Positions 1 through 51,783 of a stretch of DNA of 64,000 nucleotides are shown piece by piece. Each line of letters starts with the position of its first letter. The stretch's first letter is position 1. The notes beneath the pieces are model-generated. The model had not been told where the DNA came from. It did no database searches and was given only the letters and a program-made list of their open reading frames with translations. Source of the stretch: Closterium sp. NIES-65 (taxonomy: Eukaryota > Streptophyta > Zygnematophyceae > Desmidiales > Closteriaceae); contig CANXME010002181.1 of the NCBI GenBank assembly GCA_948144175.1, positions 2,294,001-2,358,000 on the forward strand. The letters run 5' to 3'. A program made the translations under genes and the position numbers.

Positions 1-1548
1 AGAAGTATCCCGGACCAGGGCGACCCGCGGAGGTGCCACGCATGCGGCGAAGTCGGTCACCTAAAGAGGGACTGCTCGAACTTACCTACGTGTGAACGCT
101 GCGGGAAGAAGGGGCATCGGCAGGGAGAGTGCTATCAGCGGAAACCGGGGGCAGGGTCCCAATCCCGAGAGGAGCTACAGGAAGATATTCGGAAGCTACA
201 GTCGCGGCTCGAACGAATGCCGAGGGCAGGAGGCAGGAGCCAGGCCATGATGGCCATCGAAGAAGTCGCCGAGGACGAGCTGGCTGAAGACGAGCTGGTG
301 CGGGAGTACGGCTTCATGGCGCATCCGCAGGAGCGCAGTGATTTGGAACTTCGATCCCGCCCGGACTCGATGGGGGAGTCTCGTATCTCGACGCGGCGGG
401 AACGGGCACCGGAGCGGAGAGAAGGGTCGGCAAGCAGCGATATGCGGAGGCACCTGAACGAGAGGAAGGTGTGCAAAGCGTCTGTGCTGATCGCCGAGAA
501 GGGGAGTTTGACGGTAGGGGGTCTGCCGGTCCGCCAGGGGATCATCGATACTGGGGCCTACAACATGATATTGGGAAAGGGGCTGGCTAAACAGCTCCGG
601 TTGGACCTCCCCGGGATGCATGTAGAGAGGGGGATCCTGCTGATGACAGCCGAAGGGGGGGACCCGAAGTGGATGCCCAGCACGAAAAGGCCCGTAGAAG
701 TCATGCTGTTGCCGGGCACGGATAAGGAGTGCTGCATTGGGCTGACATGCGGGATCTCGCAGTCAGAGGACTATGACGTCCTGGTGGGCATGGAGCTGCT
801 GTACAAAGTGGGGGCAACCATTTGCACGTGGCAGGAGAAAATGCTGTACCGGGTGCAGTACTGGGACCCGGAGAGCTCCGTGGGGACCTTGCCGGTCCGT
901 TTCGTCAAGCAGGAGCCGAGGGCAGCGTACCATGCGGATGAAGCTGACCTGTCTCAGGAACTGGACGATTGGACTTGGCAGGAATACGCGGAAGCAGGGA
1001 CAAAGCGGATTGAACAAGCAGAGACGGACCAACGAACGCCTGACCTGCGGGACCGAGTCAGCAGGACCTGGTGCCTCGAGGGAGCGATCGGCATCCTGGA
1101 GCTCTTCGGGGGCATAGGGTCTGGGCTCGCCGCAGCGTTGAAGGCCGGCTGTTGCGTACGAAAGTGGGTCCACGTGGAGAAGGACCCGGTAGTACGGAGG
1201 TTGGCGTACCACCACGCCATGAAACTACTCGAGGAGTACCCGCAGCAGATCTTGATCTCGGCGATCCACATGGAGGGAGAGGACGGGATTCACGATGTGC
1301 GCGACATCACCCGCTCCTGGCTGGAGGAATGTGGGCCGATATACCTGGTGGTTGCGGGTTGGGAGTGCCAGGGGTATTCGAGGGCAGGAGAAGGGAGGGG
1401 AATGGAGGACCCGCGGGGGGCTACCTTCCGAGACTTGGAGGGCGTGTTGAAGATGCTCCGGCAGACGGGCCGTGAGTTTGTCTACGTGCTGGAGAACGTG
1501 GACATGGCTGACGACCGAAGGGAACCGGTGCGGCTCGCATTCGACTAG
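1..1548 (+). CDS. Gypsy-1 gag C-terminus, protease and N-terminal half of a C5 DNA methyltransferase
   Basis: The frame is open from the first base of the window, so its true start is upstream. Two CCHC zinc knuckles (C-x2-C-x4-H-x4-C) lie at 34-75 and 91-132, typical of a Gag nucleocapsid. A retroviral-type aspartic protease follows, with Asp-Thr-Gly at 547-555 in a hydrophobic context. From about 1081 the protein becomes a cytosine-5 methyltransferase: motif I (ILELFGGIGSG, from 1093) for SAM binding, motif IV (GWECQGYS) with the catalytic Cys codon at 1366-1368, and motif VI (LENV) at 1489-1500. The usual Pro before the catalytic Cys is Glu here. The frame ends in a TAG at 1546 that interrupts the domain, so this is a decayed gene, not a natural terminus. 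Confidence 0.85.
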   Translation, partial: RSIPDQGDPRRCHACGEVGHLKRDCSNLPTCERCGKKGHRQGECYQRKPGAGSQSREELQEDIRKLQSRLERMPRAGGRSQAMMAIEEVAEDELAEDELVREYGFMAHPQERSDLELRSRPDSMGESRISTRRERAPERREGSASSDMRRHLNERKVCKASVLIAEKGSLTVGGLPVRQGIIDTGAYNMILGKGLAKQLRLDLPGMHVERGILLMTAEGGDPKWMPSTKRPVEVMLLPGTDKECCIGLTCGISQSEDYDVLVGMELLYKVGATICTWQEKMLYRVQYWDPESSVGTLPVRFVKQEPRAAYHADEADLSQELDDWTWQEYAEAGTKRIEQAETDQRTPDLRDRVSRTWCLEGAIGILELFGGIGSGLAAALKAGCCVRKWVHVEKDPVVRRLAYHHAMKLLEEYPQQILISAIHMEGEDGIHDVRDITRSWLEECGPIYLVVAGWECQGYSRAGEGRGMEDPRGATFRDLEGVLKMLRQTGREFVYVLENVDMADDRREPVRLAFD

Positions 1549-2469
1549 ATTCAGTCGGTGCTGGGAAGAGGCGTGGCGGCGGATGCGGCGCAGCTAGGAT
1601 CGCGGGCTCATCGTCCCCGGCGCTACTAGCAGAATGGAGTGTCGGATGCGGTTTTGCGGCACTCCCTAGCGCAGATGCAGTGGCTGGTCAAGGACATCCT
1701 GGGCCCGAACCGAGTTCCCGCGCCCGTAACCACCGAGGATCATCCGTCACAGTATCAGTGCAACGTGCCCGGAGAGCCCAGGCAAGCATGGCCGACGCTA
1801 GTCTCGTTCGCCGAAGCCAGAGGCTTCAAGATGGATGGGAACCTACCCGGACCCGCGATGGTGTATGACTCCCGGACGCGTAAGTGGGAGGCGCCGACAG
1901 CTGAAGAGAGAGAGCTGGCCATGGGTCACAAGTGGGGAGCCACGGCCCATCCGGACGTTACGGAGGCCCAGAGGTGCGCCGCACTGGGGAGAGCTATGGA
2001 TCTGAACGCCATGACATGGATCTTGGAGACGATCAGGATGCACCTGAAGACAAAGGCAATTCAGAGGGAGATAGACGGGAGATTGCGTTACCAAGACGAG
2101 CGAGAAGCCGCCTGGAGGAGGCAGCAGCTAGACAGTATCGAGGAGCAGCGGAACTCCCAGATCAAACAAGGATGGACCTTTATGGCGGTAGAGGTCCCGG
2201 CGAGCCAAGGGGAAGTGACAGACGCGGTACCGCTAGCCAAGGGACCAGAGGATGGCTCGGTCGAGGCTGGATGGGAGATCGGGGATGGACTGGGGGCAGA
2301 GGCAGCGACCGCGCTGCGGGGAGTGCTGAAGGAGCCCCGCTCAACCTTTGCCTTCACCCTCCAGGAGCTAGGAAGGGGCAACGTACAAGAGATGCGGATT
2401 ACGCTCAGCAGCGACGCGCCGGTCTATCACCGCAAGAGACGGATGAGCCCAAGAGACGAGGAGGTTTGA
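1549..2469 (+). CDS. Gypsy-1 C-terminal half of the C5 DNA methyltransferase and linker to RT
   Basis: This is the same reading frame as the upstream segment, after the TAG at 1546. It holds a motif VIII-like Arg block (AHRPRRY, about 1606-1626), then a second TAG at 1627, then a motif IX-like stretch (APTAEERELAMGHKWG, 1891-1938) and a motif X-like stretch (LGRAMDLNA, near 1984-2010). With the upstream half, the methyltransferase therefore appears complete in motif order. A charged coiled-coil-like linker (about 2040-2160) leads to the start of the RT (ITLSSDAPVYHRKRRMSP). It ends at TGA 2467, where the frame resumes at once, so the stop is probably CGA to TGA. Motif VIII to X assignments are by eye. 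Confidence 0.72.
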
Positions 2470-3060
2470 ATGGCCAAGTGCGCGGAGCTGCTAGCGGCAG
2501 GGCTGATCAGGAGGTCGGAGAGCGAGTTCGCAGCAGCAACAGTGGTGGCCGCACGGACCGATATTACCGGGGAAGTGTCAGCCAAGCGGATGTGCGGCGA
2601 CTATCGGGGATTGAACAAAGTAACGGTGTCGGACCGCTATCCAATGCAATCAGCAGAGGAAATATTCGACAAGCTACACGGCACAGTAGTGTTCTCGACC
2701 CTAGACCTCTGGCAAGGATTCAATCAGATCCTGATCCGAGAAGAAGATTGCAAGAAGACTGCGTTCCACGGGCCCGGATTGTATGAGTGGACAGTGATGC
2801 CTTTCGGAACGAGGAATGCACCTGCGGTGTTTCAACGGACAATGGATACAGTATTGAGGGGGGTGCCCGCGGCCGCCTGCTATATAGACGACGTGATAGT
2901 GTTCAGTGCGAACGAGGAAGAGCACACGAGAGATGTGAAGGCGACCCTGGACGCGATCCGGCAGGCGGGGTTGACCTGCCACCCGCAGAAATGCAGATTT
3001 GGGCAGCGCACCGTACAGCTTCAGGGATTCGAGGTGGGAGACGGAAAGCTGAGCGTCTAG
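2470..3060 (+). CDS. Gypsy-1 reverse transcriptase core
   Basis: Ty3/gypsy RT palm and fingers. Visible motifs in order: MCGDYRGLNK, the TLDLWQGFNQI block with the first catalytic Asp, the MPFGTRNAPAVFQ block, and YIDD at 2881-2892 carrying the two further catalytic Asp residues. It copies element RNA into cDNA inside the virus-like particle. It is in frame with the methyltransferase, separated only by TGA at 2467, so one large polyprotein is expected ancestrally. It ends in TAG at 3058, before the thumb and connection regions are finished. Confidence 0.9.
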   Translation: MAKCAELLAAGLIRRSESEFAAATVVAARTDITGEVSAKRMCGDYRGLNKVTVSDRYPMQSAEEIFDKLHGTVVFSTLDLWQGFNQILIREEDCKKTAFHGPGLYEWTVMPFGTRNAPAVFQRTMDTVLRGVPAAACYIDDVIVFSANEEEHTRDVKATLDAIRQAGLTCHPQKCRFGQRTVQLQGFEVGDGKLSV

Positions 3061-4118
3061 GAGGCGAAGGTAGAGGTCTTGGATTGAGTGCCGACGCCCA
3101 CGGACCGATCCTCGCTGCGGGCCGTGCTCGGCTTCCTGGGGTACTATCGGCGGTTCGTGCCGAACTTCAGCAAAACGGCAGCAGTGCTCAACTGCCTCCC
3201 GAGGGAGGACCAGCAGTGGCAGTGGGGTCCGAGGAGCAACAGGCCCTGAACCACTTGACGCAAGCTATCAAGATCGCAACCGTGCTGGTGCTGCCGAACA
3301 AAAACAACCCGTTCACCCTATACACGGACTGGAGCAGTGCGGGGATGGGCGCGGTCCTATGGCAGGGAAAATGGGGAGAGGAGAAGGTCGTCGCCTTCGC
3401 TAGCCGTAGCTGCAATCCCCCCGAAGCTAACTACAGCTCATACGAGGGGGAAGGGTTGGCCGCAGTCTGGGCGATCACGCATTTCCAAGTGTACCTGCAG
3501 GGAAGGCCTTTTACGCTAGTGACAGATCATCAGCCCCTGACCTGGCTAATGACCAATCAAGCGCTCACAGGCAGGAACGCGAGATGGGCCATGCGCCTGC
3601 AAGAGTATGACTTCGTCATTAAACACCGCCCAGGGAAGAGCATGCAACATGTGGACGGGCTGTCGAGGCACCCCGCGACGGACCGACCGTCGGAATGCTT
3701 GGTAGCCTTGGCACTCCATATTGACAGGGAGGGAGCCAGGAAGAACCAAACCAGAGGGCCGGATGACGTGTGGGGCGATGCTGAAGCGCTGCAGTGGGTA
3801 CAAGGCAAGACAGGGGAAGCGGGAGCGGTGCCCGAACGGGTGAGGGCACATGGGGCCCACTACCGGTGGTATCAAGGCCAACTGCAAGTGAACACCAAGG
3901 AAGGCTGGAAGGTGGTGCGAGAGCCGGGACAGCGGGAGGCAATCATAGCCAGGGTGCATCGGCAGCTTGGACATTACGGGGAGCTACGGATGCTGCAGCT
4001 GGTAGGGACGACCTGGTGGTGGGCAGGGATGCGGAAACAAGTGAAGGAGTGGGTCCAGACCTGCGAGCTGTGCAGCCTCAACAGGGCTGAACTAGACCGG
4101 GGAAGGAGGGAGCTTTAG
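3061..4118 (+). pseudogene. Gypsy-1 RT thumb, RNase H and HH-CC integrase zinc-binding region
   Basis: After the TAG at 3058 the frame continues through a second stop (TGA 3085) into the usual RT thumb motif (LGFLGYYRRFVPNFS, near 3130-3175). Near 3225 a frameshift, most simply a 1-nt deletion, moves the coding frame. RNase H follows with LYTDWSSAG, VTDHQPLTWL and the HVDGLSRH motif. An integrase-type zinc-binding region comes next (HRQLGHYG, then CELC, about 3957-4073). TAG at 4116 breaks the protein just before the integrase core, at a place where sister elements usually carry Gln. Confidence 0.85.
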
Positions 4119-5090
4119 TCACTGCCGATATATGGTCTGGGGTTCCGCTGGTCGCTAGATCTTGCGGGGGAAATGCCGCTGAGCCGACGAAGCAAACACT
4201 ACATCCTCATCATGATCGAGCATGGCTGTAAGTGGGTGGAGGTGAAAGCGCTGCCGAGCAAGAATTCCGCGCGAATAGCCGGGGCTTTCGAAGAGCAAGT
4301 GCTGACGCGGTTTGGGGCATGTGGGGAAGTGCTCACCGACCAAGGCACAGAGTTCCAGGGACACTTAGACCAGCTGTTGCAAGAGACAGGCATCACACAC
4401 AGGAGGACATCCAGGTATCACCCACAGAGCGACGGCTTGACGGAAAGGTTCGTGCATACTCTAAAGAAGGGGCTGCGGGCCTACGGCGAACAGTACAAGA
4501 GGGACTGGGACTTGAGGCTGCCCTGGGTGACGGCCGGGTACAGGTTCAGCAAGCAAGCAGTGCTGAGAGACATGTCGCCGTACTACATGCTCCTGGGCAG
4601 GGAGCCTATCTTACCCATTGACGCGCCGAAGCTGCTGACAGACACAGTACTAGTGGGGACCGAGGAAGCATGGGTCGCGGTGGCCGAGGCTCGGGCTAAA
4701 TACCTACGAGAACTACTGCCGGCAGCGCTCGAGAACCTGCACGTGACTCAACTGCGGGACGTGCAGAGGTACCGCCAGAGGGGAAGCAAGGGAAGGGATG
4801 GGAAGGAAGGCGACATCCAGCCAGGAGGGGAGGTCTACCTCAGGAAGGCGAGGGGGGACTTGCTGGACATCGGGCTCACCATAGAGAGGTGGAAAGTGCG
4901 GGATATGAAGGACTCGGGGGTGATTGTACTAGTGGGAGCCAAGGGGGAGGAGCGTAGAGATCACATCACCAATGTGGCAGCAGCCAGACCCAGGCGAATC
5001 GGCGGAGCGGAGAGCTTTCCTGCCAACAACCGTCAGGATCCATCGGCTAACCCAGGAACTAGGAGTCGAGGAGGGGGCAAGAGAATATGA
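4119..5090 (+). CDS. Gypsy-1 integrase catalytic core and C-terminus
   Basis: Retroviral-type DDE integrase. The first Asp is in RWSLDLAG (about 4150-4173), the second in VLTDQGTEF (about 4330-4356) and the Glu in SDGLTERF (about 4429-4452). This is the D, D-x35-E pattern that inserts cDNA into the genome. The segment is in frame with the upstream HH-CC region. The C-terminal 200 residues include a YRQRG/GGEVYLRKARGDLL stretch typical of the post-core region of gypsy integrases. No chromodomain is visible. The frame closes with TGA at 5088-5090, which may be natural. Confidence 0.88.
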   Translation, partial: SLPIYGLGFRWSLDLAGEMPLSRRSKHYILIMIEHGCKWVEVKALPSKNSARIAGAFEEQVLTRFGACGEVLTDQGTEFQGHLDQLLQETGITHRRTSRYHPQSDGLTERFVHTLKKGLRAYGEQYKRDWDLRLPWVTAGYRFSKQAVLRDMSPYYMLLGREPILPIDAPKLLTDTVLVGTEEAWVAVAEARAKYLRELLPAALENLHVTQLRDVQRYRQRGSKGRDGKEGDIQPGGEVYLRKARGDLLDIGLTIERWKVRDMKDSGVIVLVGAKGEERRDHITNVAAARPRRIGGAESFPANNRQDPSANPGTRSRGGGKRI

Positions 5091-5184
5091 CAGGAAAGGC
5101 AGCAGAGAGGCCGGAGGTACGATTCTGAATGAGGAAGGAGCACAAGGAGAGAAGGGCCTGGGAAGGTGGGGCAGATTCCGACAG
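5040..5184 (+). repeat. 145-bp Gypsy-1 tail, first copy
   Basis: The last codons and 3' flank of the Gypsy-1 integrase frame, including a purine-rich stretch (GGAAGGTGGGG, 5161-5171). It recurs with few changes at 5531-5675, separated by 346 bp. Which copy is original follows from the upstream gene: only this one continues from the integrase. Confidence 0.9.
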
Positions 5185-5530
5185 TTGTCACGCAATTAAT
5201 AAAGGCATCATATAATTAGCTAGCATAAGGAACCTTGATATAATTGTGTGACAGGGTAGTGTAGAATATCTCGTAGCGAGCATAGGAGATCGGCGGGAAG
5301 GACACAAAGAGCAAAGGCCCTTGTAGCGGGAAAGCCGAAAGTAGGGAGAGTCAAGAGGCAACGGTAATATTAAGAATGATACTTAGGTGCGCAGAGAGCC
5401 TTAAGGCCTCTGCTTGCTTGTATGTTTTCTTAATTAGCTAAACATCTTCCCAAACCCTAGCTAGAGAAGCCAGTTCAAGCAAGAGCCAGCCGAGTTAGTC
5501 AGCGGGGCTAGAGAGTACCACGCAATATTT
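5185..5530 (+). other. Probable 3' LTR of Gypsy-1
   Basis: The sequence leaves Gypsy-1 coding at TTGTCACGCAATT, so a TGT LTR start at 5186 is plausible. It holds an AATAAA at about 5200 and a TATA-like stretch (GATATAATTG, about 5237). The matching 5' LTR is outside the window, so neither the LTR identity nor its end can be checked. CACGCAAT occurs near both ends (5189 and 5519). Confidence 0.4.
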
Positions 5531-5675
5531 CCATCGGCTAACCCAGGAACTAGGAGCCAAGGAGGGGGCAAGAGAATATGACACGAAAGGCAGCAGAGAG
5601 GCCAGAGGTACGACTCTGAATGAGGAAGGAGCACAAGGAGAGAAGGGCCTGGGAAGGTGGGGCAGATTCCGACAG
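5531..5675 (+). repeat. 145-bp Gypsy-1 tail, second copy
   Basis: Near-identical to 5040-5184, with scattered substitutions. It ends at GACAG and passes directly into the middle of a copia polyprotein (GACTGTTACC), so it marks a rearrangement joint between Gypsy-1 and Copia-1. A long frame that starts at 5620 is an artefact of this joint. Confidence 0.9.
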
Positions 5676-6762: not shown

Positions 6763-7204
6763 ACGTTCACTCTCCCGGCCTCTCCGCAGCAGAATGGGGT
6801 TGCTGAGCGCCGCATTGGTCTTGTCATGGAGGTCGCTCGTACCTCCATGATCCATGCGGCTGCCCCCCATTTACTGTGGCCGTTTGCAGTGCAGTACGCC
6901 GCGCATCATCTCAACCTCTGGCCCCGTGTCTCCGTTCCGGAGACCTCGCCCACCCTGCGTTGGACGGGGGAGGTTGGTGATGTGTCGGTGTTCCGAGTCT
7001 GGGGATGTCGAGCTTTTGTCCGCGATACGTCTGCAGACAAGCTCTCCTCCCGTGCCGTTCCCCGTGTCTTCCTTGGCTTTGTCCATGACGCGCTTGGCTG
7101 GCAGTTTTACCACCCCACCTCGCATCGTGTCTTCGCCTCTCAGGACGTCACCTTTGACGAGTCGGTTCCCTTTTACCGTCTCTTCTCCTACCGCAATGCC
7201 CCGC

Positions 7205-32039: not shown

Positions 32040-32868
32040 TGTTGGTGCAACCCTATGGTTTGCACTCGGCTTGTTGTCCGTGTGCGTGCATGTGTGTGTG
32101 TATGGAATGGTATGAGGGCATGGGATAATATATATTTCATGCTTATAATAGTGTGTGAATGTTGAGTCATGATGTCGAGTGTGTGTGTTGAGTCAATAGC
32201 GAGTTATCTCTAGACGCGTGTTACGCGGTCGTTTGTGTCTCGCGCGCGGTTTCTATTTTGTCGTGCGCGGTTTCTATTTTGTCCCGTGTCGAACGTTCGG
32301 TGTGTCGCAGGTGTGTGCAGCAGACCCATCAAGAACTCAAGGATGAGTTTGTGATGAAGAGCCCGAGCCTTGGTGTCAAGCCTCAGGTGATTTCAAAGCT
32401 CGCCAAAAGGGTACACCTCCAGATATTGAAGATAGTTACATTACTTTGTGTAGTGTAACATTTCACTTGGTGTAGGCCCTAGTGAAGGGTAGTTTCGAGA
32501 CCCTTCGTGGTTGGGGACAGTGTGGCACTGTTCCACATCACTGTACCTCGGCTCTTGGGGTTTGTAGGAGCTGGGAGTCATTCCCAACTCGTAACTCTTC
32601 CTAACTCTTCCTATCTTGTGTTCTAAGACCATAGTGGCTGCCATAGTGCCGTTCGTTCAAACCAACCCTGTGTCGTCAATACTTGGTCAAATCGTGCGAT
32701 CTAAATTGCCTATTGTAGGCGACAATAAGAAGCTCCAGATCCAAGTTGAATCAAGTCATTTGAAGCTGTGACCAGAACGCTATGAACGTTTGAAGCCGCT
32801 GTGCAGAAATCCGACTGTGCACTCTATCTTTCGTTTTAGGCACATTGGAGCCTACTGTGACTATAACA
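32040..32868 (+). repeat. Copia-4 5' LTR (829 bp)
   Basis: TGTTGGTGCAACC to GACTATAACA. Carries a TATA-like stretch (GATAATATATATTTC, about 32124), GT-rich runs and a duplicated GCGCGGTTTCTATTTTGTC (about 32246 and 32263). Confidence 0.96.
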
Positions 32869-32870
32869 AG

Positions 32871-32882
32871 TGGTATCAGAGC
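32871..32882 (+). promoter_or_regulatory. Copia-4 primer binding site
   Basis: TGGTATCAGAGC, the canonical plant copia PBS complementary to the initiator methionine tRNA, two bases after the LTR end. Confidence 0.93.
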
Positions 32883-32902
32883 GCCTTGGAGCAGTTTCGA
32901 CA

Positions 32903-35900
32903 ATGGCTGGACATGAGGAAAGGGGTGGCAGAGGTGTTGGTGGTAGAGGAGAAGCCCAAGCTCAAGGCCAACTCCGTGACTCAGCCATGGCGCCCGTGCA
33001 ACCAAGTGTTGGCCCATCTAGGGATGAGCCTAGAGTGTTTGGCCTTGACAAGTTCAATGGTGACAACTTTGCTGAGTGGTCCTTCAGAATGGAGAACATA
33101 TTTGACCACTATGACCTGCTGGAGGTGATGGAAGGAACGGAGAAGCGTCCCGAGAACGACCCGGAGAAGAGCCCGTGGGTGCGGAAGAGCGCACAAGGCT
33201 ACCTCCTACTTGGGCAAGCGTTGGGGAGCAGCCAAATCCGTCATATCAAGCCTTTCCAGCGTGAACCAGAGAAGGGACCAAAAGCATGGGCTGCTCTCAA
33301 GGGTGTACACGCTCCTGCAACAGCGGCGGTAGCTGTGGTGTTGGAACGGCAAATGGCGACGTTACGAATTGAAGAGGATGAAGCGGTTGAAGAAGGGGTG
33401 CAGAAATTCTTCGACTTGTTGACGCGGCTTGAGGGAGCGGATTTGAACTATAGTGAGCTCCAAAAGAAGACCAAGTTGCTGGCCCTACTCCCCGAATCAT
33501 GGTCCTCGCTCATCATCAACCTCAATCGCGACTTGCCCCGCCTCTCGCTCGAAGACGTGAAGCGGGCTATCCTTCAAGAGGATTTCCGCCGTCGTGAGTT
33601 GGCGAGTGCGGATGGCGCTGGGGCAGCGAGCATCGGCCGTGGATATGGTCGAGGAAGAGGCAGAGGAAAAGGGGGAGGAAGGTTTGGTGGCAGCAACTTT
33701 GGCGGAGGCCGCGGGAGTGGCGGTTACGGCAGCAATGACAAGAGCTACGGACGCGGTCGCGGCCGATTCGACGGCGAGTGTCACTATTGTCACAAGAGCG
33801 GACACATGTGGCGCGACTGCTACAAACTCCCTGATGGTTGGACCCCTGCTCAAGGCCAAGAGGGTAGAGGAGCAGGAGGAGGGAGAGGACGAGGCCGTGG
33901 AGGCCGTGGCGGTCGCGGTGGCGGAGCTGCAAACATGAAGAACGGAGACAACGACAGGGACCCGAGCGACGATCGATACCCGGGTCTATTCTACTTCGTG
34001 TCGACGCAAGTACCGGCTGGTCCAGAGAAGGATGAAGGCTTTGAGGAGCCAGCAGCTGTGGGGAAGGTGACCCTACACCCCCTGGACTATTGGGTGATTG
34101 ATAGTGGCGCTACCTATAGCATGACACCTCGCCCGGACTTGCTCACCGAACTCGAGCCGTCACCGGTGAAGCATGTCACATCGGCTTTGGGGCAGCGAGC
34201 AGAGGTGAAAGGCATGGGGAAGGCCATGTTCAAGGGTGCTGATGGGAAGATGGTGGGCCTCAAGAACGTGCTTTGGGTGCCCAGCCTTGCTGCAAACCTG
34301 ATTTCCGTGCGGCGGTTGGCAAAGGCCGGCATGGACACTAACTCGAAGGGAGCCAAGACCTACACCGCAAGGCTTGGCGATCGGATTCTTTGGGACCTTC
34401 ATGAGGACAGAGATGTCTACAACGAGATGTGGCAGATCCCTGTGGTCCCAATGCCTAAGGAGAGGCAAGTGGCAGCAAGCGTCAGCACTAAAGGTGGAGC
34501 GGTCGGTAGCGACGATGGCGCGAACGGTCGCGCTAAGGAGAATGAGCTCAAGAAGAGCAAACCTGGAGGGACCAGCAAGTTCAGTGAACCTAAGGAGAGT
34601 GGTGCAGCAGCCAAGGGGCAGCAAAAGGGTGAGGAGAACCCCGAGGCAGCAGCGGAGGAGGACTACGGAGAGAGTATGTGGGGCGCTATTGCGAGCGCGG
34701 CATTCTCCAATCCAACTTCGGCTACGGGGGAGTGTGATTGGCTCACCTTGCATCGGCGCATGGGGCATGTGGCCCTGCCTATCTTGCAGCAGCTAGTGAA
34801 GAATGAGATGGTTGCTGGCATACGTGTGAAGGGGGAGCCCGATGAGGTGCTTGGCTGCCCGACGTGCATTCAAGCCAAGTTCACCCGGTTTCCGTTCTCT
34901 AGTTCGGATGCAACGGCAAAGGCACCGCTTGATGAGGTGGTGATGGACGTGGTGGGCCCCCTGAAGCTTGGAGCTGCTGGAGCTGAGTATTTTCTCACCA
35001 TTGTTGACGTCTACACCCGCATGACTTGGGTGTACGTGCTGGCCAAGAAGAGTGACGTGGCTGAAACGTTGAAGGCGGATTGGTTCCCGATGGTGGAGCG
35101 GCAACAAGACCGTCTAGTCAAGTCAATCCGCACCGATCGAGGGGGAGAGTTCCTGAGCAAGGAGTTTGGGTTGTGGCTGAAGAAGAATGGTATTCGGCAC
35201 TCCCTCACCATGCCATACTCCCCTGCAATGAATGGCATCGCCGAGCGAGCGAACCGTACAATCACGGAGGCGGCACGCGGGTTGCTCATTGAAGCCGGGC
35301 TACCCGACTATTTCTGGCCTGATGCGGTGCGGAGCGCGTGTGTGGCTAAGAACAGAGCCTTGACTCATGTGGGAGCAGACAAATGGGTGCCCTATGTGGA
35401 GTGGCTAGGAAGGAAGCCAAAAGTGGATATGCTTCGGGTGTTCGGGTGCATGTGCATGGCGCTTGTGCCTAAGCATCTTCGGCACAACAAGCTTGGTGCC
35501 AAGGCGGTGTGGGCCGTGCACTTGGGCATGGCTCAAAACAGCAAGGGATGGCTTCTTTGGGACCCATTCACCAAGAAGTTCTTGGTGAGCAGGGACTGCA
35601 AGTTCATGGAGAACTTCATGTACAAGGATTGGAAGGCGGAGAATGAGGCGAAGATAGGCGTGCGGTTTGGGGAGGTGAAGAGTTCCGGTTTGGAGCATGT
35701 GGAGCTGCCTTTGGAGCTGAGCAGCGGCAGCACAACCACGAGGCAATCCTCCCTTGTGAATGGGGGAGAGGAGGCCAATGATGCAGAGGAAGAAGAGGAG
35801 GAGGTGCAGCAAGTGAGCGAGCGTGCACCGTCACTCCCTTCCCGTACCACGAGTGCTCCACGGATTCGAGCCACACCGCAGCAACGCCAAGGCCTTCAAG

Positions 35901-37672
35901 TCCCTGCAGCTGAGGAGGAAGGAAGGGGGAAGAGGATAGTTCAACCCCCTAATAGGCTGACCTATGATGCACTTGGAAAGCAAGGCAAGACAGCCCTGGC
36001 CGGAGCGGCAATGATGGTCGGAGACGACGAGGAGAGTGACTACGAGGAGTGTGCCTTCGCGTTCTTCTCTCCGGTGGAGATGCCGGGAGAACCAGCAACT
36101 CTCAAGGAGGCTTTGGAGAGTAGTGATGCTGAGGAGTGGAAGAAGGCCATGGAGAGTGAGCTGAAGAGCATCGAGGAGAATGACACGTTTGAATTGGTGG
36201 AGCTACCGGAGGGGCGTACGGCGATAACGTCCAAGTGGCTCTTCAAAATCAAGTCGGATGCCGACGGCAAGATCGAGCGTTACAAGTCTAGGCTTGTAGC
36301 CAAGGGGTACCAGCAGAAGGAGAAGGTGGACTTCAAGGAGCTGTTTGCCCCTGTGGTGAAGCCGACGACGCTGCGCACCCTATTCGCGGGAGCCGCCATC
36401 AAAGGATGGGTGGTGAAGCAAATGGACATTGTGACGGCATTCCTTAACGGCATCCTTGAGGAGGAGATTTTTATGGCGCAGCCAGAGGGGTTTGATGATG
36501 GTAGTGGCAGAGTGTGGAAGCTGAAGAAGGCCCTCTATGGGCTGAAGCAGGCCCCTAGGCAATGGTACATGAAGCTACGCGAAGTGTTGGAGGAGATCGG
36601 CTTCACTCCCTCAACGGCCGATCACTCCTTGTTCATGCTTGGCGAGGGGGAGCAGAGGAGCTTCATGGTGGTTTATGTGGATGACATTCTCATATTCTCA
36701 CCCTCCTCTGACCTTGTGAAGGAGGTGATGCTGAAGCTGCATGACAAGTTCAAGTGCAAGTCTCTTGGTGACGTGAACTTCTACCTTGGGCTCCACATCG
36801 AACGAGACGTGGAGAAGCGGAGCATGCGAGTGCACCAACGGAAGTACCTGGAGGCGTTGGCTGCCAACTTCGGCCAGAGTGAAGGTCATGTGGCTACTCC
36901 CTTTCCCTCTGGGTTCAAGTGTGTGAAGGGGCCAGAGGAGGAGAGTGTTGGAGAAGAGGAGAGGCGCCGATTTCACTCGTTGGTGGGCAGCCTCATGTAT
37001 GCGGCGGTAAACACCCGACCGGACGTCACGTTTGCTACCGGGCAGCTGGCTAGGGTTGTGCAATGCCCTAATGAGGAGCAGGTAGCAGCTGGAATGAGGG
37101 TGGCCAAGTATCTTGGCCAAACACCGACCGTTGGGCTGCAATACTCGGCGGCGGCACAAAGGCGCCAAAAGGGCGCGGATGGTGTTGAACCCGGGCGTTT
37201 GTACCTCACCGCCTACTCGGATGCTTCATATGCATCAGAACCAGAGGACATGACAAGTGTGGGAGGCTTCATATGCTGTGTTGGTGGAGGCCCAACTGCT
37301 TGGGAGAGCAAGAAGCAGGTTGACCAAGCTTTGAGCTCGGTGGAGTCCGAGTACATGGCACTCTTCCGTGCCGTACGGGAGATTGTATGGCAGCGGCGTT
37401 TGTTGGCTGAATTGGGGGAGGAGCAGCAAGGACCTACCCCACTGTATTGTGACAGCCAGGGTGCCATTGCTCTTGCTAAGAACCCTGTGTTGCATGGACT
37501 CACGAAGCACATGAGGGTGAAGTGGCATTGGACGAGGAGCATGGTAACCGCGGGTGAAGTTGAGTTGCGCTACGTGAAGACCACGGGGCAGCCGGCTGAC
37601 ATGATGACCAAGAGGTTGGTGGAGCAGCAGCATTGGAAGTGTTGCAAGCTGGCTGGGATGGCTCTGAACTGA
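32903..37672 (+). CDS. Copia-4 Gag-Pol polyprotein (1589 aa)
   Basis: The start is ATG 32903 (MAGHEERGGRG). An in-frame GTG at 32870 overlaps the PBS and is not credible. Gag capsid-like region about 45-235 (FGLDKFNGDNFAEW to EDFRRREL), Gly/Arg-rich RGG segments, CCHC knuckle at 293-306 (CHYCHKSGHMWRDC), protease Asp-Ser-Gly at 400-402, pre-integrase HH-CC near 617-650, integrase D682, D745 and E781 (D-x35-E), RT from about 1090 with YVDD and Asp 1260-1261, and RNase H acidic residues D1440, E1481 and D1517. Nothing is missing or interrupted, and the length fits an autonomous copia. It is the only intact polyprotein in the window. Confidence 0.97.
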   Translation: MAGHEERGGRGVGGRGEAQAQGQLRDSAMAPVQPSVGPSRDEPRVFGLDKFNGDNFAEWSFRMENIFDHYDLLEVMEGTEKRPENDPEKSPWVRKSAQGYLLLGQALGSSQIRHIKPFQREPEKGPKAWAALKGVHAPATAAVAVVLERQMATLRIEEDEAVEEGVQKFFDLLTRLEGADLNYSELQKKTKLLALLPESWSSLIINLNRDLPRLSLEDVKRAILQEDFRRRELASADGAGAASIGRGYGRGRGRGKGGGRFGGSNFGGGRGSGGYGSNDKSYGRGRGRFDGECHYCHKSGHMWRDCYKLPDGWTPAQGQEGRGAGGGRGRGRGGRGGRGGGAANMKNGDNDRDPSDDRYPGLFYFVSTQVPAGPEKDEGFEEPAAVGKVTLHPLDYWVIDSGATYSMTPRPDLLTELEPSPVKHVTSALGQRAEVKGMGKAMFKGADGKMVGLKNVLWVPSLAANLISVRRLAKAGMDTNSKGAKTYTARLGDRILWDLHEDRDVYNEMWQIPVVPMPKERQVAASVSTKGGAVGSDDGANGRAKENELKKSKPGGTSKFSEPKESGAAAKGQQKGEENPEAAAEEDYGESMWGAIASAAFSNPTSATGECDWLTLHRRMGHVALPILQQLVKNEMVAGIRVKGEPDEVLGCPTCIQAKFTRFPFSSSDATAKAPLDEVVMDVVGPLKLGAAGAEYFLTIVDVYTRMTWVYVLAKKSDVAETLKADWFPMVERQQDRLVKSIRTDRGGEFLSKEFGLWLKKNGIRHSLTMPYSPAMNGIAERANRTITEAARGLLIEAGLPDYFWPDAVRSACVAKNRALTHVGADKWVPYVEWLGRKPKVDMLRVFGCMCMALVPKHLRHNKLGAKAVWAVHLGMAQNSKGWLLWDPFTKKFLVSRDCKFMENFMYKDWKAENEAKIGVRFGEVKSSGLEHVELPLELSSGSTTTRQSSLVNGGEEANDAEEEEEEVQQVSERAPSLPSRTTSAPRIRATPQQRQGLQVPAAEEEGRGKRIVQPPNRLTYDALGKQGKTALAGAAMMVGDDEESDYEECAFAFFSPVEMPGEPATLKEALESSDAEEWKKAMESELKSIEENDTFELVELPEGRTAITSKWLFKIKSDADGKIERYKSRLVAKGYQQKEKVDFKELFAPVVKPTTLRTLFAGAAIKGWVVKQMDIVTAFLNGILEEEIFMAQPEGFDDGSGRVWKLKKALYGLKQAPRQWYMKLREVLEEIGFTPSTADHSLFMLGEGEQRSFMVVYVDDILIFSPSSDLVKEVMLKLHDKFKCKSLGDVNFYLGLHIERDVEKRSMRVHQRKYLEALAANFGQSEGHVATPFPSGFKCVKGPEEESVGEEERRRFHSLVGSLMYAAVNTRPDVTFATGQLARVVQCPNEEQVAAGMRVAKYLGQTPTVGLQYSAAAQRRQKGADGVEPGRLYLTAYSDASYASEPEDMTSVGGFICCVGGGPTAWESKKQVDQALSSVESEYMALFRAVREIVWQRRLLAELGEEQQGPTPLYCDSQGAIALAKNPVLHGLTKHMRVKWHWTRSMVTAGEVELRYVKTTGQPADMMTKRLVEQQHWKCCKLAGMALN

Positions 37673-37713
37673 CAGAGCAACATATCCTAAGGCCAACAAT
37701 CCGAGGGGGAGTT

Positions 37714-38542
37714 TGTTGGTGCAACCCTATGGTTTGCACTCGGCTTGTTGTCCGTGTGCGTGCATGTGTGTGTGTATGGAATGGTATGAGGGCATGGGAT
37801 AATATATATTTCATGCTTATAATAGTGTGTGAATGTTGAGTCATGATGTCGAGTGTGTGTGTTGAGTCAATAGCGAGTTATCTCTAGACGCGTGTTACGC
37901 GGTCGTTTGTGTCTCGCGCGCGGTTTCTATTTTGTCGTGCGCGGTTTCTATTTTGTCCCGTGTCGAACGTTCGGTGTGTCGCAGGTGTGTGCAGCAGACC
38001 CATCAAGAACTCAAGGATGAGTTTGTGATGAAGAGCCCGAGCCTTGGTGTCAAGCCTCAGGTGATTTCAAAGCTCGCCAAAAGGGTACACCTCCAGATAT
38101 TGAAGATAGTTACATTACTTTGTGTAGTGTAACATTTCACTTGGTGTAGGCCCTAGTGAAGGGTAGTTTCGAGACCCTTCGTGGTTGGGGACAGTGTGGC
38201 ACTGTTCCACATCACTGTACCTCGGCTCTTGGGGTTTGTAGGAGCTGGGAGTCATTCCCAACTCGTAACTCTTCCTAACTCTTCCTATCTTGTGTTCTAA
38301 GACCATAGTGGCTGCCATAGTGCCGTTCGTTCAAACCAACCCTGTGTCGTCAATACTTGGTCAAATCGTGCGATCTAAATTGCCTATTGTAGGCGACAAT
38401 AAGAAGCTCCAGATCCAAGTTGAATCAAGTCATTTGAAGCTGTGACCAGAACGCTATGAACGTTTGAAGCCGCTGTGCAGAAATCCGACTGTGCACTCTA
38501 TCTTTCGTTTTAGGCACATTGGAGCCTACTGTGACTATAACA
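37714..38542 (+). repeat. Copia-4 3' LTR (829 bp)
   Basis: Follows the polypurine tract CCGAGGGGGAGTT. Same sequence as the 5' LTR as far as I can read, including the identical 66-codon chance frame at 37932. Confidence 0.96.
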
Positions 38543-45910: not shown

Positions 45911-46141
45911 CTGCTCCTTCTCCCTACACTGGTCCTACTGGAGGTCTTGCTGAGCGTCGTGAGCCTGCGTCTCGTCCTGCGTCGCCTGTTCGTGCTGCTC
46001 GCACTAGTAGTCGCTCTCCGCATCCGCGTCCTCCTGCGGTCCCAGGCACACACCAGATGGCATTGCGTCCTTCCACTGCTCCTCTACGTGTCCCGTTGCC
46101 GTCTCCTCCAGAGTCCTCTTTTCCTGTTCTTTCTGACCCGG

Positions 46142-46509
46142 TGTGAGGATCTAGGATCGAGCTCAGAAAAGAGAATGTGAATTGAATTATCACCTGAGTA
46201 CAACACGAGGCTATATATAGGCTCGACACAAGGCCCCGTAACCAGGTGTTACGCGAAGGTTCCGCGGGTCGCGAAGCGTCCCGAACAGATCCTTCCCGAA
46301 TTTGGTAGAAGGCAATTCGGTGGCAACCAAAAAGCCAGAATTCGGTGCACCCAACCTAGCTCGGTGCTATAACTATAATAAAATATAGGAAAGAACCTAG
46401 CCTAGGAGATCACGCAATTCATGCATGCATATAATTATCATATGCTAGAAATAGCATAATAAAGTAAAGGCAAGCAAGCATAGCTGGCATAAGCCGTCGT
46501 TCTCTCACA
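46142..46509 (-). repeat. Gypsy-2 3' LTR (368 bp)
   Basis: On the minus strand TGTGAGAGAACG to CTAGATCCTCACA, preceded by polypurine GAGGGGGGGACA. Contains CTATATATAG (about 46210). Confidence 0.93.
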
Positions 46510-46519
46510 TGTCCCCCCC

Positions 46520-46720
46520 TCAAAGCTGGGTGGCGTTAGCTACACCCTGCTTGACAAGATAGTCCTTGAGAGCACAGCGTGCGTTGCCCATATCAGCTTC
46601 TGCAACCCAACTGTCCTCAGTGGGGTCGTATCCCTTCCAGCGTATCAGGAACTCGAGGGTCTTGCCGCCGCGGCGCCAAGGGGTGAGAACACGCTCGATC
46701 TCGTACTCAGGTTCATCCTA
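46520..46720 (-). CDS. Gypsy-2 chromodomain
   Basis: Minus-strand frame DEPEYEIERVL, then GGKTLEFLIRWKGYDPTEDSWV and ADMGNARCALKDYL, ending at TGA (46520-46522). The aromatic and acidic residues of a chromodomain are present (Y in YEIE, W in RWKGY, W in EDSWV). Such domains at the end of chromovirus integrases read histone marks and steer integration into silent chromatin. It lies in a different frame from the integrase, so there is a shift near 46780, and TAG at 46718-46720 precedes it, likely CAG originally. Confidence 0.87.
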
Positions 46721-46779
46721 TATGAGAACATGTGGTGGTGGCGGTAGTTGCCGTCCCAGGAATAGGTGGTTGGCGTCCT

Positions 46780-48765
46780 TTAGGGCTTCAGTAGCTGGAC
46801 ATGGAAAGCGTTGTGAAGCTTCCATGTATCTGGTAAGCGCAAGCGGAATGTAACTGGTGTCACCTGTGCCTCAACGAGAAAAGGACCACAGAAGCGAGGC
46901 CAGAGTTTGGATGGTAGGTGAGACAGGTTCAAGTTGCGCGTGTCAAGAAGCACCTGATCTCCGACTGCTACTGAGTGATCACGTCGCTGACGATCGGCAT
47001 ACTGCTTCTGGGAGTTCTGCATCGTGGTGAGACGTCGCTGAGTCTTCTCCCATAGCTGCTGCATGGTGGTGACGAAGTCATGTGCGGCTTGGACGTGTGC
47101 CGGTGTGGTTGGCTGCTGTGGTGTGAGTGGTTCCCGTCCGTAACACAGGAAGAAAGGAGTTTTCCCTGTGGCCGCATGTGACGCGTTGTTGTAGGCGAAC
47201 TCTAGGGTCGGTAACTGTGTATCCCAGTGGCGGACGTCGTCTTTGCAAGCTGTGCGCAGTAACTGTTCAACCACTTGATTGAGTCGCTCTGTCTGTCCGT
47301 CAGTCTGGGGGTGGTATGCTGAAGACATTGCAAGCTTTGTCCCCAACAGTCCCATGAGCTCCTTCCAGAACTTACTAGTGAATTTTGGGTCTCTGTCTGA
47401 GATGAGTGTAGCGGGGATGCCGTGGATGGTGATGATGCGGTCGAAGAAGAGGCGAGCAGTTGCTTCAGCTGTAGCTGTGGCGTTGGTCGGTATGAAGTGA
47501 CCCATTTTGGAGAACTTATTGATGACTACGAGGATGGAATCGTGCCCTCGTGAGGTTGAAGGAATTCCTGTGATAAAGTCGAGGCTAACGACCTGCCATG
47601 GCTGCTCCGGTACAGGTAGAGGCTGAAGTAACCCTGTTTTTTTCTGCTTGCTGCTCTTCATCCGCTGGCACGTGTCGCATGAGGTGACGAACTGCTGCAC
47701 GTCTGCTGCCATCCCGGGCCAGTAGTAATACTTCGCTATCCCTGCTAACGTCTTGTTGCTCCCGAAATGTCCCGCGTAATGTACGTCGTGAAACTCCTCC
47801 AATAGGATCTGCCGTAGCGGGGCGTAATTCGGTACCCAAGTCTTTCCTGAACCCTTCCTTACAGCTAAGTCTTTCTCCCACTGTAACAGCTTCTTGGTCT
47901 GTGCTGTAGCGATTTCTGCGTCCACGGAGTACCCATGTTGGAATAGACCCTTAAGCAGAGGGTTCATCCCGTCGAGCTGGATGCCTGCTACATGTTCGGG
48001 GCGGCTCAACGCGTCTGCCTTGTTGTGTAGCCCGGGCTTGTAGACGATGTCGTAGTGGAAGTGAGTTTCTAGGAAGTCCACCAACCGCACCTGTCGCCGT
48101 GAGAGCGTCGGCTGCGACTTCAGGTATTTGAGACTGCAGTGGTCAGTATAGACTGTAGTCTTGTCTCCCTCTAGGTAACACCTCCACGCCTTGAAGGCTA
48201 TGACTATCGCTAAGGCTTCCTTGTCATGGATGGGGTAGTTTAGTTCTGCTCCAAGTAGCTTCTTACTGAGGTAGGCGATGGGCTGCAAACCGCGTCCGTG
48301 ATCCTGCATCAGTACTGCTCCGACTGCTTGGTCACTAGCGTCTGCTTCCACCATGTAGTCCTTGTCTGGATCTGGTAGGATGAGTACTGGCGCTGTAGTC
48401 AGTGCTGTTTGTTGCTGCTCCATGGCTTGCTGATGAGGCGTATCCCATTTGTAGGGCGTATCCTTTTTCAGTAGGTCGGTCAGTGGCGCTGCTATCTTAG
48501 CGTACTGCGGCACGAACCTGTTGTAGTAGTTGGCGAAGCCTAGGAACTGCTGCAACTCCTTCACGTTCTCCGGTACTTTCCATTTCTTGACAGCTTCGAT
48601 CTTCCGCGGGTCCACGTGTACGCCCTCGGCACTCACCATGTGCCCGAGAAACTGCACCTTCTTCAGGGCGAAGTCGCTCTTCGACAGCTTCACGTATAAC
48701 TTGTTTTTCCGCAGGATCTCGAACACCTTCGGCAAATGCTCCACGTGCTCCTTCCTGTTCTTGGA
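46780..48765 (-). CDS. Gypsy-2 RT thumb, RNase H and integrase
   Basis: Begins after TAG 48766 with SKNRKEHVEHLPKVFEIL, then LGHMVSAEGVHVDPRK and LGFANYYNRFVPQYAKIA (RT thumb). RNase H: VEADASDQAVGAVLMQ, VYTDHCSLKYL, NKADALSR. Integrase: HYAGHFGSNKT and CDTCQRMK (HH-CC), then Asp in VSLDFITGIP, Asp in LISDRDPKFTSKFW and Glu in TDGQTERLNQ. The C-terminal DTRNLNLSHLPSKLWPRFCGPF and FHVQLLKP are the GPF/Y-like module. It is uninterrupted over 660 codons and looks chemically complete. Confidence 0.93.
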   Translation of the reverse strand, partial: SKNRKEHVEHLPKVFEILRKNKLYVKLSKSDFALKKVQFLGHMVSAEGVHVDPRKIEAVKKWKVPENVKELQQFLGFANYYNRFVPQYAKIAAPLTDLLKKDTPYKWDTPHQQAMEQQQTALTTAPVLILPDPDKDYMVEADASDQAVGAVLMQDHGRGLQPIAYLSKKLLGAELNYPIHDKEALAIVIAFKAWRCYLEGDKTTVYTDHCSLKYLKSQPTLSRRQVRLVDFLETHFHYDIVYKPGLHNKADALSRPEHVAGIQLDGMNPLLKGLFQHGYSVDAEIATAQTKKLLQWEKDLAVRKGSGKTWVPNYAPLRQILLEEFHDVHYAGHFGSNKTLAGIAKYYYWPGMAADVQQFVTSCDTCQRMKSSKQKKTGLLQPLPVPEQPWQVVSLDFITGIPSTSRGHDSILVVINKFSKMGHFIPTNATATAEATARLFFDRIITIHGIPATLISDRDPKFTSKFWKELMGLLGTKLAMSSAYHPQTDGQTERLNQVVEQLLRTACKDDVRHWDTQLPTLEFAYNNASHAATGKTPFFLCYGREPLTPQQPTTPAHVQAAHDFVTTMQQLWEKTQRRLTTMQNSQKQYADRQRRDHSVAVGDQVLLDTRNLNLSHLPSKLWPRFCGPFLVEAQVTPVTFRLRLPDTWKLHNAFHVQLLKP

Positions 48766-48768
48766 CTA

Positions 48769-50463
48769 GATGAGGATATCGTCCAGGTACACCACTACGC
48801 ACTCGTCCAGCAAGGGTCGTAAGATGTGATTCGTCTCCGCCTGAAACGTTGCGGGTGCATTGCAGAGTCCGAACGGCATCACCAAGTATTCGTAGGAGCC
48901 GTATCTGGTACGGAACGCCGTCTTGTGGACCGAGTTGTCTGCCATCTTGATCTGCCAGTAACCCGATCGTAGGTCCAGCTTCGGAAATACTGTTGCTCCA
49001 CGCAGTTGATCCAATAGGTTGTCTATGCGCGGTATGGGATATTTGTTTTTGACTGTCTGTTTGTTCAGTGCGCGGTAGTCGATGCACATCCTTAGACTGC
49101 CGTCTGGTTTTGGAGTGAAGAGGACTGGTGCAACGTAGGGAGAGGTGGATGGGCGGATCAGTTGTCTTTCCAGTAGATATTCTATATGTTTCTTCATGTC
49201 TGTCAGTTCGGTCGGACTTAGTCGGTATGGTGCATGTGAGACGGGTTTAGCACCTGGTTCCTCCACGATCTCGTGCTCGTGGGTGCGTGCTGGAGGTACG
49301 CCTGCGGGTAGGTCGTCGGGCATTATATCCTTGTACTGCTCCAAGACCTCCTTTACTGTTGCAGGTAGCTCCGAACTCGGCTTCTCCTCCTCTGCTGCTG
49401 CCATAACCAGTGCTAAGTATCCCGTGTTACTCTCGTTCACAGTCCGTTCGAACCGTGCCAGTGTCGTTTCAGGAACGCTCCCTGTATCCGTCCAGCTTCG
49501 CAGCTCCACTCGTTTCCCGTTGTTGTAGATGCGCGCCTTCCTGTTGACCCAATCGATCTCGGGGTTGAACCGCTTCAGGAAATCTCGCCCCAAGATGAAA
49601 TCTAAACCCTTGATGTTCGTGATCGGCAACGTCGGCTTCCATCTCAGCGCCCCTATGTGCAGCTGCAGTGATGCTTCGCCGTGGATGGGAAGTTTCGTAC
49701 CGTCCACCATCGTTGCCATGAACTTGGTCTCCTCCGAAGGTTCTCCAATTTTCTCCAACGTCCCGCGGTCGCACACCGAGTGGGACGCACCACTGTCCAC
49801 CATTGCCTGGAGGCGTCGCCCGTTGCAGATCACCTCGAGTAGTAGTGGTTGTTGCTGCTCCGAGTAGCCGTAGATGGACTCGCTTATAAAATCGTAGGGT
49901 ACGTCGAATAGATCATCCCTCGGTCCTGCGCTCGAAGCTGCTGATTCCATTTCAGTTTCCAACTGAGCAGGTTTAGAAGGATTTATCCGAGGCCGATTCA
50001 GCTTTGTCTTGGCCTGGAACCTTCTCTTAAGCCTTTGCAGCTGTGTAGGCTTCTCCTGTGGGCAATGGGGAGCCTTAACACTATGCTGCGGGGAGAGAAT
50101 ATGAACTCCTTGGAACGCACGACCTTTTTCAACGCTCCGGAGTGGTTTGGCCAACTTTGCAGGTACCTGAATAATTTCTGAAGGCTTTTTCTTGGCCTTG
50201 AAATCTCCCCGCAATTTTTTAAAGGCTTGAAAACCTCGAGAGGGAATATTCTTACTCTCGGGGGTGTTTGGCTGGAGTTTCCCGGTCGGTGCAGATTCTT
50301 GTTTCGCGGAGCCTCCATTTGTCTCGGCGATTTCCCCTGTTGCCGGCCGGTCGTGGCGTTTTAAATTCGCGCCATCATATCCTCCTTTTTTCGCCATCGT
50401 GGATGTTGCACTTTTGTTGCCCTGCAGCTCCGCTAGTGCCTTCTTCATTTTCCAACACGCCAA
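48769..50463 (-). CDS. Gypsy-2 protease and RT
   Basis: A basic, Lys/Arg/Pro-rich region of 190 residues leads to the protease ([14 protein letters not shown]) and [13 protein letters not shown]. After a linker, RT shows [45 protein letters not shown] and VVYLDDILI with YLDD near 48780-48791. TAG at 48766-48768 follows directly after DDILI, where Tyr or Phe is usual, so this stop is probably not of the CAG type. Confidence 0.92.
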
Positions 50464-51354: not shown

Positions 51355-51359
51355 TTGGC

Positions 51360-51768
51360 GATTTACAGGAAAATGTGCGACGAAAATAATTGAATTCTAG
51401 GCGCTGGTCATCTTACTGTGAGTCGAATTGACTGTAGAAATGACGAGCGCTGATTCTGTAGGTCGCGTAATTCTCCCTTAGTTGAAATTCGCGTCCGATC
51501 TCGGCCGTTGAGAAGAAATTCGATCCGACGCTCCAAATTCCAACCCTTTGGTCGAAATTCCCAGGGCCGTTGAGATTCGAATCGATCCAACGGTCGAAAT
51601 TCCAACTTTTTCGCCACTAGACCTGAGGAGTGTTCGAAAACCGGTTCGAGGGGGACGTTAGAAAATAGCGCGGAACTGGTTTACGTACCCGAAATCGACG
51701 CTTTCCGTCGTCGCCCCCGCGGTTTTAAAAGCTAGGTTTTAGCGGTAGAAAAACTTCGCTTCGAACAG
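51360..51768 (-). other. Gypsy-2 untranslated leader
   Basis: About 410 bp between PBS and gag. Contains several GAAATT and CGAAATTC motifs (51480-51600). No coding potential recognised. Confidence 0.6.
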
Positions 51769-51783
51769 GCTCTGATTACCAAG

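Follow-up and report, generated by a model that had tools for sequence, protein, structure and literature searches.

Cytosine methyltransferases (MTases) borne by retroelements have been described in a charophyte alga and in dinoflagellates. In KnitGypsy-Dnmt3 of Klebsormidium nitens, a DNMT3 domain is part of the gypsy Pol and evolves with Ka/Ks <0.2, the repeats are stated to have the same structure as a DIRS retrotransposon, and the copy number is given as lower than in Symbiodinium (de Mendoza et al. 2018, PMC5890265). According to the same paper, the SymbioDIRS-Dnmt3 enzymes of dinoflagellates methylate CG in yeast. A 2025 paper places DNMT3 members in long terminal repeat (LTR) Copia and DIRS elements, and split direct repeats are described for tyrosine-recombinase elements. 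An earlier note, made from the letters of the DNA treated here, had named charophyte gypsy and dinoflagellate copia elements as carriers of such enzymes; the former holds, as KnitGypsy-Dnmt3, whereas for dinoflagellates the 2018 paper gives LINE and DIRS elements. The element analysed here lies at the beginning of a stretch of 64,000 nucleotides from Closterium sp. NIES-65 (contig CANXME010002181.1, positions 2,294,001 to 2,358,000, forward strand; this whole stretch is called the window). Sequence comparison identifies it as a dead copy of a large, recently active Ty3/gypsy family with a captured DNMT3-type MTase between protease and reverse transcriptase (RT). A gypsy-borne DNMT3 with DIRS-like repeats is not a first, the Klebsormidium elements having been reported in 2018 (PMC5890265); new are above all the termini, and also a Glu-Cys motif in the active site and the size of the family. 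The earlier note had missed both the family's membership in the published KnitGypsy-Dnmt3 type and its more unusual feature, the terminal structure.

The Pfam matches of the window copy run in the Ty3/gypsy order CCHC-protease-MTase-RT-RNase H-integrase. Frame 1 is open from 1 to 1545 and includes the CCHC knuckle, a weak aspartyl-protease match and, in the profile search that the earlier note had proposed, a match to PF00145 above the cut-off of 22 (E 1.4e-5, 25.2 bits). The RT match at 2377-3057 shares this frame when read with X at one stop, and RNase H and integrase lie in other frames. Motif I (LELFGGIGSG, nt 1096-1125), motif IV (WECQGYS, with the catalytic Cys codon TGC at 1366-1368), motif VI (ENV, 1492-1500), the block SRAHRPRRY, which ends at TAG 1627, and LGRAMD after it follow one another in frame 1, just as the note had read them in one frame with protease and RT. 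The two stops by which it had declared the copy dead, TAG 1546 and TAG 1627, are present, and TGA 2467 and TAG 3058 follow further on. The domain that it had placed at 1081..2035 is real, but its end lies at about 2046: window positions 1093-2046 align with residues 2-323 of the 323-aa MTase domain of an intact relative (69% identity, E 7.7e-145).

Intact relatives, which the earlier note had thought might exist, are indeed present in the genome (874 Mb, 2400 contigs). The 323-aa domain has at least 124 matches, mostly whole-length and some partial, and the Gag-protease-MTase piece of the window has at least 84; both numbers are lower bounds, since only the best candidates were scored, and a few places are duplicated between contigs. 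Open frames of 2,074-2,178 aa surround 13 of the at least 124 matches; in one of these, the match itself also contains a TAG. None of the nine copies examined (frames of 2119-2178 aa) lacks motif I, IV or VI, a possibility for which the note had allowed: all carry GGIGTG, WECQGYS and ENVD between an upstream CCHC motif and the downstream RT motif YIDD. In two intact copies, the Pfam matches are CCHC, MTase, RT, RNase H, H2C2 and rve; to these a weak protease match is added in one copy, and a tyrosine recombinase in neither; the protease of the intact relative L022 (PF13975, E 3.1e-5) is likewise under the cut-off. Within six copies, the terminal repeat units A1 and A2 (see below) are 98.9-100% identical over 360 nt, indicating recent insertion. 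The alignment of host copies omitted L014, L009, L010 and L017, which are the same places as L022, the window, L031 and L030, as well as the partial or frame-split MTase loci L001, L003, L007, L011, L012, L013 and L016.

The alignments give the motif order I-IV-VI-VIII-IX-X without rearrangement, and stretches align to DNMT3A in order. DNMT3 (DNMT3A/B) is the nearest profile and the nearest predicted fold among solved structures, and DRM is not among the 50 matches listed in this comparison; the fold is predicted to be DNMT3-like. To our knowledge, Pro before the catalytic Cys is near-invariant across C5 MTases. The window family has Glu-Cys in motif IV instead of Pro-Cys, as the earlier note had observed, but the Glu is not peculiar to the element: among 33 related domains, it is found in 25 and Pro in 8. 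The catalytic Cys is present in all 33, and motif VI and the AHRxR block are largely retained; this set and the trees use 6 of the 20 host rows and leave out the partial-domain rows P0001-P0004, P0030 and P0031. On the tree, Pro and Glu were exchanged at least five times, which suggests that both forms work. Outside the 33, the broken relative L031 has Phe for the catalytic Cys, and the host element lineage of L004 and L005 has ENP for ENV in motif VI. The substitution pattern argues that the MTase domain has been kept by selection: in one diverged pair, the ratio of nonsynonymous to synonymous differences per site (pN/pS) is 0.082 for the MTase, 0.084 for RT and 0.082 for the integrase.

The domain, freed with or tethered to RT, would most likely methylate the new DNA of the element or its insertion site, and the methylated copy would then reach the genome already marked; that it methylates the element's own cDNA (complementary DNA) is a hypothesis which follows a suggestion of de Mendoza et al. 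(PMC5890265). The observed/expected ratio of CpG, 0.79-0.85 in two intact copies and the window copy and 0.76 in the rest of the window, speaks neither for nor against methylation. Several points weigh against an active, selected enzyme: in the closer pair L022/L027, pN/pS is higher for the MTase (0.223) than for RT (0.151) and integrase (0.063), the synonymous sites of L022/L024 are near saturation (pS ~0.75), and Glu in place of Pro could weaken catalysis. If Glu abolished methyl transfer altogether, the domain would be a pseudo-enzyme kept for binding DNA or RNA, for example as a cofactor of RT or integrase; the rarity of departures from Pro in C5 MTases at large, noted above, and the 25 Glu domains fit such a role. 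The yeast assay of the Klebsormidium enzyme, in which no methylation was seen and which its authors call inconclusive (PMC5890265), counts in the same direction. Against it stand the Cys in every row, the retained motif VI and AHRxR block, selection equal to that on RT in the diverged pair and the repeated Pro/Glu changes, by which both forms seem functional, so that a pseudo-enzyme appears unlikely, though it deserves to be kept in mind. Methylation of RNA, either the element's genomic RNA or a tRNA, is a possibility that de Mendoza et al. bring up for the LINE enzyme of dinoflagellates (PMC5890265); it is considered very improbable here. The broken state of the window copy would also fit a chance similarity or the remains of a host gene next to a retrotransposon; with open frames of the same domain order in nine of nine copies and with relatives in Closterium and Klebsormidium, this idea is refuted and its probability negligible.

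The termini of the family are built from two repeat units, A and B. Insertions take the form A-coding-B-GC-A-B or the form A-coding-B without terminal repeat, the latter in 4 of 14 fully matched copies, all in the L024 subfamily. In each of the first six copies of the longer form, the insertion begins with TGTCAT and finishes with CCGACA (TCGACA in one copy), the target duplication is a perfect 4 bp and the spacer between B1 and A2 is GC, which creates the junction GACAGCTGTC. Five of seven further copies have the duplication as well (11 of 13 in total). Among the four A-coding-B copies, the duplication is perfect in three, and the fourth has 3 of 4 bases and the end GACG. A genome-wide search for the L024 subfamily (at most 2 mismatches) found 38 A-starts and 41 B-ends, and nothing for the reversed patterns. 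Its 34 places comprise 10 ABAB, 4 AB, 6 AA (6846-6863 apart), 5 BB (577-583 apart) and 9 unclassable ones (2 single A and 7 single B), the 11 AA and BB places being classed by spacing only. In the L022 subfamily, counted from A-starts only, 20 A-starts form 10 pairs enclosing the coding part, eight at 6792-6954 and two at 14.3 and 18.8 kb that are taken as single elements with inserts. The spacing expected of A-B-A-coding-B occurs in none of the 31 two-unit places of both subfamilies. At the A2|B2 join, where LTR edge meets LTR edge, 8 of 13 copies read TTAC|AAG or TTTC|AAG; L025, L026, C1829, C2050 and C2111 have other sequences there.

The borders of both units fall on landmarks of reverse transcription. 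A ends within a few nucleotides of ACATACAAGCAAG (ACATACAACGAAG in lineage C) and carries a perfect 13-14 nt complement of the primer site in four of five lineages; in five of six sequence sets, none of 300 block shuffles gave as much, and a chance complement was rejected. In lineage C, an altered primer site is matched by an altered complement, a compensated change, and A1, A2 and the GACAGCTGTC junction are present. B starts at most 2 nt from GGAGGGGG in five of six copies and 29 nt later in L025. Tf1/sushi-like elements are self-primed, the 5' region of their RNA being complementary to the primer-binding site. With the RNA 5' end placed by inference, the same complementarity holds in the four lineages, and the family is probably self-primed in the manner of Tf1. 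The remaining traits are divided between element classes: the protease-RT-RNase H-integrase order with an rve integrase is that of Ty3/gypsy (for the protease weakly), yet the identical LTRs at both insertion ends that belong to it are lacking, with A on the left and B on the right or no repeat at all; split direct repeats A1...B1-A2-B2 are present as in DIRS/PAT elements, whose other trait, a tyrosine recombinase in place of a DDE integrase, is not among the matches listed for two intact copies that have rve and H2C2.

These termini suggest an unusual mode of insertion, which could proceed in the following manner: The RNA would start at CTTGCTTGTATG inside A1, and self-primed but otherwise conventional reverse transcription would yield an LTR of the composition B-GC-A. 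Such an LTR is expected if A stops at the self-complementary primer site and B starts near the polypurine tract, and its conventional synthesis would homogenise both A and B, as observed. The integrase may then act at the palindrome GACA-GC-TGTC (GACAGCTGTC) in the middle of the LTR, not at the LTR edges, most likely in the 5' LTR, the choice of which is conjectured to reflect that it becomes double-stranded first. By a cut GACA^GC^TGTC, the LTR centre would form the integrated ends TGTC...GACA; cleavage after CA on each strand of this palindrome would account for GC being present inside and missing outside. The outer cDNA ends would be joined to each other by end-joining, resulting in A-coding-B-GC-A-B with a variable A2|B2 join, as is seen, and a single LTR would result in A-coding-B, as the termini of these copies indicate. 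Taken as a whole, a DNMT3-type gypsy family that marks its own DNA and integrates through a palindrome in mid-LTR is probably the best explanation. The conjunction of a DDE-integrase element that integrates from the LTR centre with end-joined cDNA and a Glu-Cys DNMT3-type enzyme that marks this cDNA is held more tentatively, as a claim close to balanced and leaning slightly towards being wrong.

Some observations sit poorly with mid-LTR integration and self-priming: 2 of 13 A-coding-B-GC-A-B copies have no target duplication; for lineage B (L032, where the A end is incomplete in the stretch), no primer complement was found beyond 8 nt, which 24 of 300 shuffles also gave; the purine tract of the window copy comes 31 nt after the start of B; and a search of the 311 bases that follow A2 in the lineage C copy gave no B2. 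The most similar known repeats point to another origin, in which the inner B1-A2 serves, as in DIRS/PAT elements, as template for joining the cDNA ends into a circle: the order A1...B1-A2-B2 equals that of PAT, Ngaro and VIPER, and a legend in the 2018 paper says DIRS-like (PMC5890265, both from excerpts). This template-joined mechanism was rejected on the integrase type (DDE; the Pfam matches of two intact copies include no tyrosine recombinase), the 4-bp target duplications, the borders of A at the primer site and of B at the purine tract and the inconstant A2|B2 join; it would also leave the A-coding-B copies unexplained, and is regarded as improbable. A plain two-LTR circle opened randomly at either B-GC-A junction would account for both product forms, for GC being kept inside and lost outside and for the variable join, but it predicts A-B-A-coding-B in about half of the insertions. 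With 0 of 31 in this order, a free circle cut at random was rejected, and its probability is low; the same count burdens mid-LTR integration, for which a directional step must be assumed. The idea that the coding region is spliced out of an A-B repeat was rejected, there being no GT/AG at the A and B borders, and so was an assembly artefact, given conventional LTRs elsewhere in the window and target duplications at the repeat-less copies.

Features of the methyltransferase-bearing Ty3/gypsy copy, with positions in the window
Feature	Position	Strand	Basis
CCHC zinc knuckle (end of Gag)	31..78	+	PF00098, E 3.8e-6
Aspartyl protease, weak match	508..618	+	PF13650, E 0.022, below cut-off
C5-cytosine methyltransferase domain, DNMT3-type, broken by TAG 1546 and TAG 1627	1093..2046	+	PF00145; match to intact relative
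Catalytic Cys codon, motif IV; Glu codon 1363-1365 before it	1366..1368	+	reading and alignment
Reverse transcriptase, in MTase frame	2377..3057	+	PF00078, E 2.7e-29 in piece 2470-3057
RNase H, other frame	3303..3608	+	PF17917, E 1e-34
Integrase zinc-binding H2C2	3930..4088	+	PF17921, E 4.4e-15
Integrase core (DDE, rve)	4146..4424	+	PF00665, E 3.9e-8
Repeat B1	5039..5183	+	repeat comparison
Polypurine tract GGAGGGGG	5070..5077	+	read in sequence; in intact copies, tract abuts B start
Spacer dinucleotide at B1-A2 junction: GT here, GC in 6/6 intact copies	5184..5185	+	
Repeat A2	5186..5529	+	pieces 88-89% identical to relative L031
CTTGCTTGTATGT, complement of the primer-binding site upstream of the window (L036); inferred RNA 5' end	5413..5425	+	13-nt perfect complement, 0/300 shuffles
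Repeat B2, right element end (...CCGACA)	5530..5674	+	97% identical to B1

Of A1 of the window copy, only the last ~58 nt were recovered. Upstream of the window (L036:347 to L021:6871), its gag is interrupted by ~7.7 kb of other DNA, in which there are 309-bp direct repeats (96% identical). Two further retrotransposons lie in the window: a copia element at 32040-38542, whose 829-bp LTRs (100% identical) and open frame of 1601 aa mark it as inserted very recently and in the conventional form, and a gypsy element on the minus strand at 46141-52151 with LTRs of ~370 bp (96% identical), a Tf2-1-like SH3 at the integrase end and no MTase match. An Rfam scan of the window gave no matches at gathering scores. 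Elsewhere in the genome, MTase matches at C995:460522, 467586 and 474650 are spaced by exactly 7064, twice, and those at C382:36104 and 43192 by 7088; these are possibly head-to-tail arrays of about one element unit, from multimeric cDNA or unequal crossing-over. The assembly also has 20 equally scoring rbcL matches, each covering the whole profile (contigs C75, C97, C162, C1848, C2174 and others), presumably unmerged plastid contigs. Its rbcL shares 91-93% identity with sequences of land plants and other streptophytes, the best full-length match being a EukProt protein of the prefix SM000511 (Spirogloea); with the named MTase relatives given below, this places the host among the streptophyte algae, probably close to Closterium.

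Named relatives of the MTase come from Closterium sp. NIES-53, NIES-54 and Naga37s-1 and from Klebsormidium nitens. Among 31 related proteins, those with enough domains form two architectures: (i) MTase-RT-RNase H-integrase, in Closterium, Klebsormidium and contigs of ENA and JGI; (ii) RT-RNase H-MTase-integrase, in 15 metagenomic-contig proteins (P0013-P0015, P0017-P0023, P0025-P0028, P0031). A PHD finger is listed for 13 of these 15 and for P0029 of the first architecture, and follows the integrase in both proteins of the second that were scanned (P0015, P0023). The place of the MTase before RT, which had been thought unusual in the earlier note, is common to those Closterium proteins in which both domains are visible (P0001-P0003, P0030) and to Klebsormidium P0024 (MTase 308-568, RT 713-937), presumably one of the KnitGypsy-Dnmt3 elements. 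The trees were made within the retroelement family only, the RT tree from rows with a long enough match. In the MTase tree, the two architectures are the two sides of one branch (support 100/99; one change), and in the RT tree P0024 groups with the second architecture (96/93); one capture followed by a move and two captures both fit these trees.

With the present family, which has more than 100 matches, DNA methyltransferases carried by gypsy elements are found beyond Klebsormidium in another streptophyte alga. Given near-identical repeats and intact frames among its many recent copies, this host allows self-methylation by a mobile element to be put to the test. The Glu-Cys motif puts the need for Pro in motif IV in question, and the termini offer a concrete, testable account of the DIRS-like repeats reported for such gypsy elements. 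Possible structural relatives are TOC1 of Chlamydomonas, which has an unusual repeat arrangement, and REM1, which has gypsy kinship. For REM1, a truncated integrase that lies in reverse frame is described (PMC2774666). The nearest named relatives, the Closterium proteins (45-79% identity), share Glu-Cys where motif IV is visible and have the MTase before RT in the four showing both; they differ in being unannotated (unnamed products) and were compared as proteins. With KnitGypsy-Dnmt3, as far as the excerpted text describes it, the family shares the gypsy Pol, an intronless DNMT3-type domain, purifying selection and DIRS-like repeats, with the exception of the 4 of 14 copies, in one subfamily, without second A and B. 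It differs in its at least 124 matches and in having Glu-Cys and ENV, whereas P0024 has Pro-Cys and EHV; the main text of the 2018 paper (PMC5890265) does not mention target site, direct repeat, circular or self-prim. SymbioDIRS-Dnmt3 and SymbioLINE-Dnmt of dinoflagellates are likewise retroelement-borne cytosine MTases, but belong to other element classes and reflect independent capture, according to the same excerpts. Integration at a circle junction was proposed for a retrovirus, spleen necrosis virus, in 1984 (Panganiban and Temin, cited in PMC11054761): as proposed here, joined LTR ends and a palindromic junction were involved, but the model was later abandoned for retroviruses, and in the window family the palindrome lies inside the LTR. 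PAT, Ngaro and VIPER, finally, are described with the same split direct repeats A1...B1-A2-B2, but have a tyrosine recombinase, in contrast to the DDE integrase and 4-bp target duplications of the window family.
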